DNA from: Nocardioides sp. ChNu-153
GTDB taxonomy: Bacteria > Actinomycetota > Actinomycetes > Propionibacteriales > Nocardioidaceae
Assembly (NCBI RefSeq): GCF_030466625.1
Contig: NZ_JADEVT010000007.1
Location: 1 to 64,000 of the forward strand
Reading direction: 5' to 3'
Length of the DNA: 64,000 bases
The notes below the pieces were generated by a model. That model was given only the letters and a program-made list of their open reading frames with translations, ran no database searches and had not been told where the DNA came from. The number at the start of each line of letters is the position of its first letter. Within the stretch, counting starts at the first letter, position 1. This document shows positions 1-28,687 of the stretch, one piece after another. The position numbers were made by a program, and so were the translations under genes.

Positions 1-2
1 AC

Positions 3-173
3 CGCACCCTCGCCGACGGCTGGGCCTACGCCCGCCACTACCCCTCAACCCAGCAACGCGACGACACCCTCGAGACCTGGCTGCACTTCTACAATCACCA
101 CCGGCCCCACACCGCCATCGGCGGCCACCCACCCATCACCAGGCTGACCAACGTCCCTGGACATCACAGCTAG
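3..173 (+). mobile_element. IS481-type transposase, C-terminal fragment
   Basis: The open frame enters from the left edge and ends with TAG at 171-173, giving 56 visible residues. The visible part contains WLHFYNHHRPHTAIGGHPP, the end of a retroviral-type integrase (DDE) core; in this family the HHRPH.A...G.PP motif lies just after the catalytic glutamate. The first two catalytic residues lie outside the window, so it cannot be said whether the element is intact. Its stop codon lies inside a half copy of the hairpin repeat at 169-189. IS481 is the best fit; a related IS3-group element is possible. Confidence 0.8.
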
Positions 174-189
174 CGGCCCTCGAAACCAC
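169..189 (-). repeat. Hairpin repeat family 1, half copy
   Basis: Half of the family-1 unit: GCTAGCGGCCC followed by TCGAAACCAC. It holds only one arm, so it cannot fold alone. The TAG in its centre is the stop codon of the transposase fragment, so the element and the repeat abut or one inserted into the other. Confidence 0.75.
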
Positions 190-203
190 GAGGGAACCCG
201 GGC

Positions 204-244
204 GTGGTTTCGAGGGGTTGCCGGAGCAACCCACCTCAACCACC
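204..244 (+). repeat. Hairpin repeat family 1, full unit with GGTTGC/GCAACC apical stem
   Basis: Reads GTGGTT, bulge TC, GAGG, apical stem GGTTGC, loop CGGA, GCAACC, bulge CA, CCTC, AACCAC, C. The outer stem and both bulges match the other copies, while the apical stem differs on both arms in a way that keeps pairing. Confidence 0.85.
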
Positions 245-279
245 AAGAGGTCCCGGAGCTCGACGTGGCGCGCTTGTCT

Positions 280-318
280 GGTGGTTGAGGTGGCCGCGCT
301 AGCGGCCCTCGAAACCAC
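280..318 (-). repeat. Hairpin repeat family 1, full unit, inverted, GCCGC/GCGGC apical stem
   Basis: Same structure as the unit at 204-244 but in the opposite orientation and with apical stem GCCGC/GCGGC around TAGC. It ends 22 bases from the stop codon of the DUF222/HNH gene. Confidence 0.85.
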
Positions 319-339
319 GACTCGGGCGAATCGGGCTGC

Positions 340-1590
340 TCAGTTCCGCCGGGTGAACCGCAGTTTGCCGGTGCCGAGGGTCTCGGTGAGGTACGTCGGG
401 TCGTGTGCGACGCGGTGGTGGCGCCAGCAGAGCAGCCGTCCGCGTTCGACGGTGGTGTGTCCGCCGCGTGACCAGGGGTCGTCGTGGTGGGCCTCGCACC
501 AGTGGGGTGGTGCGTCGCAATCTTCGGCGGTGCAGCGCTGGTCGCGCAGGATCATCGCGATGCGCTGGGGCTTGCTGTGGAACCGCGCCGACCGGCCGAG
601 GTCCAGCACCTCGCTCTTCGTACCCAGCACCGCCGGGACGAGATCGGCGCCGCAGGCGAGGCGGCGGGCCTCGCCGGGTGAGATGCGGTGCCCGGTGTCG
701 AGCGACGCCGCGGCGAGACCGCCGGTGAGGGTGTCGACCTGCATGGTGACGACGACGGTGGCGCCGGCGCCGGCTGCGTCGGGGAGGTCGGCGTCGCGCA
801 TCCGCTCGATGAGCTCGACGAACGCTTGGCCGCGCCGCTCCCACGACGGGCGCGGGTCGGCAGGGGCGTCGGCGGCCTCATCACGCAGGTGAGCGCGCCG
901 CGGCGAGGCGATGGCGTCGAGCATCTTGGCGAACATCGCGCCGTGCATCTCCGGCACCGTGAACCGGCCGTGGACGCAACCGTGGCCGTCCTCGCGCATG
1001 GTGAGTCGGATCTTCGCGGCGGCCTCGCGCTCCTCGCGCGCCAGCAGCTCCGCCTCACGCGCCTCCCCGACGGCGGGGGCGACGACGTCGAGGATCCGGC
1101 GGCCCAGCACGCGGAGGGCTTTGGCGTCGTGCTGATGGGCGAACCCGACCAGCGTGCGTTCCGCCTCGGCCCTGATCTCCGCGGTGACGCCTTCGCCCAG
1201 GTCGTCCAGCGCCCGCACCACCACCTCGACCTGACCGGGCGAAACGGCGCCGGAGGTGCCTGCGGCGGCGAGGGCGTCGTACTGCTCCTCGGTGGCGACC
1301 GCGGCACGGACGCGGCGGTGGGCCTCGGCGCGCGGGACGCGGGTGGCGGTCGCGAACCACACCGCCGTCGAGGGCGCACCCGTCTCGTCTTCGACCCGCA
1401 CGTCGGAGGCGTGGGCCAGGAGCCGCGACTGCAACGCTGCGAGGCGGTTCGCGGCCCGCTCGAGCTCGACGATCGCGGCGCCCGTCTCGGCCGGGCCCAG
1501 CGTGAGCAGACCGAGCTCGAAGCCGTCGTCGAGGTCTTCGTGGACGCGTGCGACGACCCCGGCGAGGGGGTGCAGCGCGGTCTCGGTCAT
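340..1590 (-). CDS. DUF222 / HNH endonuclease domain protein (13E12-type)
   Basis: A 416-residue protein. The N-terminal three quarters is the helical, alanine/arginine-rich DUF222 region; the C-terminus carries an HNH nuclease fold with CTAEDCDAPPHWCEAHH, then DPWSRGGHT, then LLCWRHHRVAHD. The paired cysteines and the histidines fit a zinc-supported HNH site, so the catalytic part looks intact. The ATG at 1590 was chosen over a longer frame because TGTGAT lies 6 nt before it and the extra 16 residues do not look like a protein start. Families of this kind occur in many copies in actinobacterial genomes; their role is not established. The gene is bracketed by hairpin-repeat clusters at 169-318 and 1702-1894 and sits beside a transposase end, which suggests a mobile or repeat-associated cassette (inference). 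Confidence 0.9.
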   Translation of the reverse strand: MTETALHPLAGVVARVHEDLDDGFELGLLTLGPAETGAAIVELERAANRLAALQSRLLAHASDVRVEDETGAPSTAVWFATATRVPRAEAHRRVRAAVATEEQYDALAAAGTSGAVSPGQVEVVVRALDDLGEGVTAEIRAEAERTLVGFAHQHDAKALRVLGRRILDVVAPAVGEAREAELLAREEREAAAKIRLTMREDGHGCVHGRFTVPEMHGAMFAKMLDAIASPRRAHLRDEAADAPADPRPSWERRGQAFVELIERMRDADLPDAAGAGATVVVTMQVDTLTGGLAAASLDTGHRISPGEARRLACGADLVPAVLGTKSEVLDLGRSARFHSKPQRIAMILRDQRCTAEDCDAPPHWCEAHHDDPWSRGGHTTVERGRLLCWRHHRVAHDPTYLTETLGTGKLRFTRRN

Positions 1591-1701
1591 GGACCCATCA
1601 CACCAGGAAGCACCGACAGTTCTGGCCGTGCGGCGCACTACTCCACAGGGCGAGTTTTCGCAGGTCAGAGTGGGTTCGCGCTGAGCCGGTCGACCCCGGT
1701 C

Positions 1702-1740
1702 GTGGTTTCGAGGGCCGCTAGCGCGGCCACCTCAACCACC
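1702..1740 (+). repeat. Hairpin repeat family 1, full unit
   Basis: Outer arms GTGGTT-TC-GAGG and CCTC-AACCAC enclose apical stem GCCGC/GCGGC with loop TAGC. This is the reference form of the unit. It lies 111 bases upstream of the DUF222/HNH start. Confidence 0.85.
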
Positions 1741-1748
1741 GGAGCAGC

Positions 1749-1816
1749 GCGGCCTCAACCACCGGGCCCAGCGCGCGGCCACCTCAACCACCGGCGAGGC
1801 GGGGCCACCTCGACCA
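1749..1816 (+). repeat. Hairpin repeat family 1, run of 3' half units
   Basis: Three partial copies in tandem hold only the 3' arm (GCGGCCACCTCAACCACC or close variants) at about 1749-1763, 1773-1792 and 1797-1816. The first lacks the CA bulge and the last has CGACCA for CAACCA. They cannot form the hairpin alone and look like decay or partial duplication of the unit. Confidence 0.7.
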
Positions 1817-1829
1817 TGGGAACAACGGC

Positions 1830-1894
1830 GTGGTTTCGAGGGCCGCTGGGGCGGCCACCTCAACCACCGGCGAGGCGGGGCCACCTCAACCACC
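1830..1894 (+). repeat. Hairpin repeat family 1, full unit (1830-1868) plus half unit (1877-1894)
   Basis: The full unit has apical stem GCCGC/GCGGC with loop TGGG instead of TAGC, so the loop varies while the stem is kept. The half unit after it holds GGGGCCACCTCAACCACC. The whole stretch 1591-1920 between the flanking genes is filled mainly by these repeats. Confidence 0.8.
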
Positions 1895-27575: not shown

Positions 27576-28545
27576 ACGAGCGGCGCGGGTGTCGCGGCGG
27601 GGCGTGCTGGCGGGGTCGCTCGGCACGGTCGGGGCGGCGCTCGGGCTGGCGGGGCTCGCCGGGTGCGCCGACGACGGCCTGCCCGGCGCGGCGGACGAGC
27701 CGCCGCCGGACGACGCGACGCCGATCCCGGGCAGCGACGTGCTGACCCCGCGCCGGGTGGCCTACGGCGACGACCCCGCGCAGTACGCCGACCTCTACCG
27801 CCCCGCGCCCGGCACGACGGTCGACGGCCGGGCCGACGGTCCGGCCTCCAAGGGCGTCGTGGTGGTGATCCACGGCGGGTTCTGGCGGGCCGAGTACGAC
27901 GCGACGCTCGGCGCCCCGCTGGCCCTCGGCCTGGCGGAGGCAGGGTGGACGGCCTGGAACCTGGAGTACCGCCGCGTCGGCTCCGGCGAGGGCGGCGGCG
28001 GTGGGTTCCCGGCGACCCTGGACGACGTGGCCGCCGGGATCGACGCGCTGGCCGACGTCGACGACCTCACCGACGCCGAGCGCGCGACCGTCCTGACGCT
28101 GGGGCACTCCGCGGGTGGCCACCTGGCGGTCTGGGCCGCCGCGCGCGGCCGCTTCGAGCGGTGGGCGCCCGAGCGGGTCGCGGTGACCGGCGCGGTCAGC
28201 CAGGCCGGGGTGCTCGACCTGACCGGCGCCCTCGACGACGCCACCGCCCGTCCGAACGTGCTGGCGCTCATGGGCGGGGACGCCGCGGCGGACCCCGAGT
28301 CCTACGCGCAGGCCGACCCGACCGCGCACCTCCCGCTCGGCGTGCCCGTGCGCTGCGTCCACGGCACGGACGACCGGATCGTGCCGATCACGCAGTCGCT
28401 GCGGTACGTCGAGCGCGCCGTCGCCGCCGGCGACGACGCCACTCTGACCGAGGTCGACGGCGACCACTTCGTCGTCATCGACGCGGCGTCGCCGGCGTGG
28501 TCCGCGACGCTCGACCTGCTGGAGGGCCTGCGCCCCGGTGGTTGA
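27550..28545 (+). CDS. Tat-exported alpha/beta hydrolase lipoprotein
   Basis: A 331-residue protein. The N-terminus has a twin-arginine signal (VSRRGVLAGSLG) and lipobox LAGC with C39. The hydrolase domain has the oxyanion motif HGGFW, the nucleophile elbow GHSAGGH, HGTDDRIVP (Asp) and DGDHF (His), the pattern of BD-FAE / kynurenine-formamidase-like esterases. GTG at 27550 was chosen because GGAGG lies 6 nt upstream and it gives the usual n-region; it overlaps arfB by 26 bp. Its TGA stop (28543-28545) lies inside a hairpin-repeat copy. Confidence 0.85.
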   Translation: MGGRAGGTERAARVSRRGVLAGSLGTVGAALGLAGLAGCADDGLPGAADEPPPDDATPIPGSDVLTPRRVAYGDDPAQYADLYRPAPGTTVDGRADGPASKGVVVVIHGGFWRAEYDATLGAPLALGLAEAGWTAWNLEYRRVGSGEGGGGGFPATLDDVAAGIDALADVDDLTDAERATVLTLGHSAGGHLAVWAAARGRFERWAPERVAVTGAVSQAGVLDLTGALDDATARPNVLALMGGDAAADPESYAQADPTAHLPLGVPVRCVHGTDDRIVPITQSLRYVERAVAAGDDATLTEVDGDHFVVIDAASPAWSATLDLLEGLRPGG

Positions 28546-28584
28546 GGTGGCCGCGCGGCTCATCGGTGGTTGAGGTGGGTGCGC
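28537..28584 (-). repeat. Hairpin repeat family 1, two half units
   Basis: GGTGGTTGAGGTGGCCGCGC at 28537-28556 and GGTGGTTGAGGTGGGTGCGC at 28565-28584. The first carries the stop codon of the hydrolase gene. Only one arm of each is present. Confidence 0.75.
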
Positions 28585-28591
28585 GGCGCCC

Positions 28592-28630
28592 GGTGGTTGA
28601 GGTGGGTGCGCTAGCACCCCTCGAAACCAC
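28592..28630 (-). repeat. Hairpin repeat family 1, full unit with GGTGC/GCACC apical stem
   Basis: GTGGTT/AACCAC and GAGG/CCTC outer pairs are kept; the apical stem is GGTGC/GCACC around GCTA, again compensated on both arms. Orientation opposite to the next unit. Confidence 0.85.
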
Positions 28631-28646
28631 GGGTGGCCCGGGCTGG

Positions 28647-28687
28647 GTGGTTTCGAGGGCTCGCTAGAGCGAGCCACCTCAACCACC
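28647..28687 (+). repeat. Hairpin repeat family 1, full unit with GCTCGC/GCGAGC apical stem
   Basis: Outer arms and TC/CA bulges as elsewhere; apical stem GCTCGC/GCGAGC with loop TAGA. A fourth distinct but paired apical stem. Confidence 0.85.

Follow-up and report, generated by a model that had tools for sequence, protein, structure and literature searches.

Mirror-image hairpin repeats around HNH and GIY-YIG nuclease genes in Nocardioides and other bacteria

Described systems and the present locus

REP/RAYT systems (REPtrons, BIMEs and REPINs) place an enzyme gene between inverted palindromic repeats, which are also scattered through intergenic DNA, where inverted doublets and tandem arrays of them are common; their stems carry compensatory changes and the pairing of gene with repeat varies by species, as far as the accessible portions of PMC2817692, PMC3116915 and PMC3733652 describe the REPtron and REPIN layouts. 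IS elements that target REP sequences are described in the available part of PMC1525189. The multi-copy DUF222/HNH genes of Mycobacterium tuberculosis, called REP13E12 or 13E12, are treated as a repeat in the accessible portion of PMC10589994. Free-standing homing endonuclease genes, of the HNH and GIY-YIG superfamilies, stand alone between host genes and have empty sites in relatives.

How does the present locus compare with these? A preliminary description had noticed hairpin clusters around a DUF222/HNH gene of Nocardioides sp. ChNu-153 and likened them to RAYT systems. The likeness takes in all the REP/RAYT features listed above from those partial accounts, and it stands for the mirror-image brackets, the REPIN-like doublets and the empty sites. 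It fails at the enzyme: here the genes encode HNH or GIY-YIG nucleases, no Y1/HUH transposase was found in the genome, the enzyme gene is multi-copy (21 HNH genes) with a large share of the hairpins adjoining it, and a search of the own-genome hairpins for a GTAG-type head found none. Homing endonuclease genes share the superfamilies, the stand-alone setting and the empty sites; what sets the present genes apart is that a dispersed hairpin family flanks them and that a single genome has many of them, at unrelated places, and neither intron nor intein was seen at them. Likened by description alone, REP13E12 has in common with this genome a multi-copy DUF222/HNH gene (12 PF02720 matches here) and differs, as portrayed in the accessible text, in the mirror-image hairpin clusters found here. 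REP-targeting IS elements, as far as that source describes them, have a parallel in IS ends that fall in the CTAG loop of the hairpin at several sites, which would explain the interrupted copies, not the brackets. Among the papers listed by a search of the open-access literature, with few subscription journals or preprints, none connects REP-like repeats with DUF222/HNH or GIY-YIG genes.

Hairpins and HNH genes in Nocardioides sp. ChNu-153

The window analysed here is the first 64,000 nt of contig 27 of the 3.75 Mb genome, which lies in 29 contigs. At 340-1590 on the minus strand it carries a gene for a DUF222/HNH protein of 416 residues, one of 11 copies in the genome that we call family A. 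Among Pfam models DUF222 alone was matched (E 1.6e-33); the Pfam HNH match was sub-threshold (E 0.12). A C-terminal Cys/His HNH-type motif is visible, and most of the C, H and R positions within it do not vary in an alignment of the 11 paralogues. The protein folded alone gave an uninformative model (mean pLDDT 41).

Hairpins occupy 170-318 on the 3' side of this gene and 1702-1893 on its 5' side. Those on the 3' side are a full hairpin of 38 nt at 281-318 (+), whose a arm points away from the gene, a full 40-nt variant at 204-243 (-) with the inner stem GGGTTGC/GCAACCC, and the b half of a truncated hairpin at 170-190 (-; arm match at 173-189), which was reduced to half a copy by an IS end that meets it at the CTAG loop. 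The 5' side begins with a full hairpin at 1702-1739 (-), the mirror image of 281-318 (inverted repeat I1, 58 nt, 91%), and continues with two half copies at 1753-1791 (-; near 1753 and 1782), each an a arm with part of the inner stem, a full hairpin at 1830-1867 (-) found by both arm and 39-mer matches, and an outermost half copy at 1884-1893 (-), an arm match. The bracketing clusters that had been described from the sequence are real, with four full hairpins and a number of half copies in all, and the copies do occur in both orientations (281-318 on the plus strand; 204-243, 1702-1739 and 1830-1867 on the minus). They also exceed chance, since the a-arm 16-mer with up to three mismatches has 17 matches in the window against 1.3 expected, a number reached in none of 100 shuffles. 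A gene-free array lies at 28538-28686 and consists of two half copies, a full hairpin (+), a spacer and a full hairpin (-). It unites two blocks that each of the four close relatives compared has at widely separated places, and so sits at a rearrangement (synteny) breakpoint.

Each full unit is an interrupted palindrome, a...rc(b), in which a is GTGGTTGAGG and b is GTGGTTTCGAGG; units of this genome start GTGGTTGAGG and end CCTCGAAACCAC. The inner stem covaries: over 22 distinct 38-nt forms, 98% of inner pairs are paired, against 26% and 39% when the alignment is slid by one. Predicted RNA folds of the two commonest forms are strong (-21.6 and -23.5 kcal/mol), and an Rfam search gave no match. 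The hairpin loop seems to be the target of the IS, an end of which falls exactly at the CTAG loop at several contig ends (window 1-170, the end of L067, the starts of L077 and L078 and the end of L066). The element at window 1-170 had no Pfam match, and we take it from its visible C-terminus to be IS481-like.

Throughout the genome the 39-mer with up to three mismatches has 80 matches (reversed control, 0), and 113 hairpins have exact arms. Of these, 62 lie within 500 bp of 21 close HNH genes, where 0.63 would be expected, and in 54 of the 62 the a arm points outward. The enrichment of copies near DUF222/HNH genes, which the preliminary description had proposed as a check, is strongly positive both here and in the related genome G058 (28/41). 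The 21 genes comprise the 11 close family-A copies, which together with one weak match to a family-B gene make up the 12 PF02720 matches, and ten copies of a second HNH family, family B, of ~505-520 residues, the others being 83-87% identical to the first. Mirror-image brackets enclose 16 of the 21 genes if both sides must have exact arms and 19 if one arm mismatch is allowed (10/10 family-B and 9/11 family-A copies). Their form is [a+ a+ (a+ b-)n] GENE [(b+ a-)n a- a-]. Most a arms point outward, and most of the tandem half copies stand on the outside of the bracket. The two family-A exceptions are C1:507252, with hairpins on one side only, and C1:598097, which has none and is a sequence outlier, 76% identical to the window copy against 85-90% for the others. 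A distant family-B relative (33% identity) at C1:305592 likewise has no hairpin nearby. Other HNH matches are weak as well (Pfam E 0.0086 at L044 and 0.00018 at L054; PHROG HNH E 0.0043 and 0.0011). Inverted brackets of 1.3-1.9 kb were seen to contain no kind of gene other than nuclease genes, and the other hairpin clusters examined lack genes, with one exception in which the hairpins lie beside a GIY-YIG gene; many of these arrays are inverted doublets whose two hairpins are ~13-20 nt apart.

An a-arm-like decamer (up to one mismatch) also occurs inside family-B genes, ~290 nt before the stop in nine of ten copies (for example, L044:6068), and may be a coding coincidence. A viral origin was rejected, as no relatives were found in viral contigs; plasmids gave no match and defence models none.

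Two elements could be compared with their sites in relatives. The site of the family-A element L071 measures ~52-86 bp in all four close relatives against ~2.5 kb here, with flanks 84-86% identical; its neighbours we take, from their protein sequences, to be metX and rplU, and the insert also holds, beyond the hairpins, a gene for a small membrane protein. At the family-B element L044 the site is 37 and 66 bp in G121 and G214 against ~2.2 kb here, while in G058 it is filled by 0.8 kb of unrelated DNA and in G106 by a 15.7 kb segment. The empty sites suggested as a test were thus found in close relatives at both loci, in four of four at L071 and cleanly in two of four at L044, and neither hairpin nor gene is present in the relatives at these sites. 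Mirror-image ends are present. At the ~15% divergence of these relatives the boundaries of the empty sites are blurred, not legible to the base, and no target duplication is readable. The copies are not recent: median dS between them is ~0.5, which means that no recent burst was caught. Their reading frames are intact and conserved, and median dN/dS values of 0.18 (family A) and 0.21 (family B) place the proteins under constraint.

Nuclease partners in other genomes

Is bracketing by hairpins a property of DUF222 genes? DUF222 is present in 58 of 59 same-genus genomes. In a de novo test for inverted flanks, the best DUF222 copy of each of 29 relatives scored above the null maximum in no case (0/29), and the proposal that all DUF222 genes carry hairpins was dropped. 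The strict motif was found at 0/29 best DUF222 loci and 2/29 best family-B loci, and was then relaxed, with controls, to GGTYGAG...TCGARACC, in a count from which L098 and five short family-B loci were left out. Exact-arm hairpins accompany the best DUF222 copy in 2 of 28 species; for family B they lie within 500 bp of 13 of the 24 best-per-genome loci across the genus, with 28 of 32 hairpins outward. The link to DUF222/HNH genes holds in ChNu-153 and in G058, but it is not specific to DUF222, as all ten family-B copies are bracketed, the best DUF222 copies of other species mostly lack hairpins and three close relatives have dispersed HNH genes without the hairpin. Hairpin bracketing is not a property of DUF222 as such.

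The arrangement differs among close relatives. In G058, 28 of 41 hairpins have a family-A or family-B gene within 600 bp, and every one of the 28 lies on the 5' side of it and points outward; their inner stem differs from that of ChNu-153, and an inverted 3' copy occurs at seven of ten family-B genes (scores 28-43 against a null maximum of 18). G106, G121 and G214 contain many dispersed family-B genes without the ChNu-153 hairpin, and these genes have their own short conserved ends. Upstream of some family-B genes (L218, L219 and L222 in G121; L182 and L183 in G106) lies another hairpin, about GCGTCGAGTTTGG...CCAAGCTCGACGC, with tandem half copies outward, the ChNu-153 plan in another sequence; some family-B genes of the three genomes carry neither hairpin. 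Upstream of two inserted family-B genes of G214 (L224 and L226), CRISPR-like repeats adjoin the gene, and these look to us like type I-E repeats.

The stand-alone GIY-YIG nuclease is the partner found consistently, both within the genus and in other phyla. Hairpin-rich G040 showed no family-A or family-B gene at the six stretches examined; there a GIY-YIG gene of ~95 residues (Pfam E 7.8e-19) is bracketed by two groups of hairpins, one of nine and one of six. In ten genomes, mostly picked for hairpin abundance, the strict motif flanked 9 of 14 stand-alone GIY-YIG genes against 0 of 16 of the uvrC/dnaQ type, a label judged from open-frame length and score. When the genus sample and the ten genomes were taken together, 34 loci, part of the stand-alone genes found there, were scored: exact-arm hairpins lay within 500 bp of 28, hairpins with one mismatch near 33, and 19 were bracketed, whereas the uvrC/dnaQ-type controls gave 0/16 and 1/16. 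Two further loci, neither with hairpins, were left out (L282, at a contig edge, and L278, a weak match). Presence of a stand-alone GIY-YIG gene showed no clear link to exact hairpins among the genomes listed (~17/27 hairpin-positive and ~16/32 hairpin-negative), in a comparison whose exact pattern misses GGTCGAG variants, and in hairpin-rich G020 and G041 no hairpin-flanked GIY-YIG gene was found.

A protein scan of public genomes, from which the best 80 of 563 GIY-YIG relatives were kept, extends this pattern; the nearest relatives of the genus's GIY-YIG proteins in it belong mostly to Nocardioides. With pair-compensated arms sought within 400 bp, hairpins flanked 25/33 loci of Nocardioides/Marmoricola (control windows, 14/124), 16/23 of other Actinomycetota (2/85), 11/11 of Chloroflexota (3/39), 7/9 of Bacteroidota (0/32) and 3/4 other loci (0/14). 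An arm-free test for mirrored flanks on the same best 80, four edge loci aside, placed 63 of 76 loci above the control 95% point. Distances between GIY-YIG proteins and between hairpins are weakly correlated over 28 loci (Mantel r 0.27, a value that none of 2000 permutations reached), a statistic that ignores phylogeny. The GIY-YIG gene of ChNu-153 itself (L066:4351-4617, C8) has hairpins on one side only; it retains the catalytic domain, but where it meets an IS3-type element its own C-terminal end has been replaced.

Possible routes of spread

Layout and recurrence suggest a self-spreading repeat system that is served by nucleases and not by known transposases. The best reading, to which we give about even odds, is a system of the REP/REPIN kind that has a homing-type nuclease for its enzyme, GIY-YIG in general and HNH locally. 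The replicating unit of such a system would be the inverted hairpin pair, with the gene between its halves encoding the serving nuclease: the DUF222/HNH protein in the window, in one of ~19 such units in the genome, and the ~95-residue GIY-YIG protein in most other lineages. The nuclease would recognise the conserved outer arms, GGTYGAG...TCGARACC, probably as a folded strand, and would nick or cut the DNA there; repair or strand transfer might then place copies of the hairpins, sometimes together with the nuclease gene between them, at a new intergenic position. In this lineage HNH proteins may have taken over the repeats, and the local GIY-YIG gene is the one cut short beside the IS3-type element.

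Could the HNH genes be guests of the hairpins and not their drivers? The main rival explanation has the hairpins spread by another agent, either a GIY-YIG nuclease acting in trans or one unseen, and regards the HNH genes as independent selfish genes that insert in or beside the arrays. Insertion between the halves of a gene-free doublet would yield exactly the observed bracket; the one family-A copy without hairpins is an outlier in sequence; and G106, G121 and G214 have dispersed family-B genes that lack this hairpin and have their own conserved short ends. We nevertheless hold this explanation to be unlikely, as many species have hairpins beside their family-B and GIY-YIG genes, mostly in the same outward orientation, relatives lack hairpin and gene alike at the two sites compared, and the GIY-YIG gene that might act here is damaged.

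Considerably less probable is that the hairpins act as terminators, as insulators or to stabilise mRNA, and gather round tolerant genes, the nuclease link being a product of selection for insulation or an artefact of recombination. Such roles would suit their intergenic position and strong predicted RNA folds; they agree poorly with inverted brackets that in this genome were seen to enclose nuclease genes only, with half copies that stand in tandem, most of them toward the outside, and with the lack of exact hairpins at the GIY-YIG genes of uvrC/dnaQ type in the same genomes. The hairpin loops do receive IS insertions, and the two arrays might be imagined as the ends of a composite transposon, used by an IS transposase and carrying anything between them, a very improbable arrangement given that nuclease genes alone were seen inside the brackets and that those examined held no transposase gene. 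Least probable of all is an ordinary REP/RAYT system with its Y1 (HUH) transposase in trans, which would match the REPtron and REPIN layouts as partially available in the sources cited above, as PF01797 has 0 matches in this genome and was matched in 5 of 14 control genomes, and the hairpins lack the GTAG head.

The reading in which nucleases serve the hairpins may, more tentatively, be widened to a family of selfish repeats that crosses phyla: YGAG...TCGAR hairpins would be spread by tiny stand-alone GIY-YIG nucleases and not by a tyrosine transposase, and in Nocardioides-like actinobacteria two HNH families, one of them DUF222, would have been recruited as alternative drivers, giving ~20 bracketed units per genome. 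If true, a partnership of nuclease and hairpin would offer a testable role for both, would add to the types of enzyme known to spread bacterial repeats, and would account for the small GIY-YIG genes that lie inside similar hairpins in several phyla.
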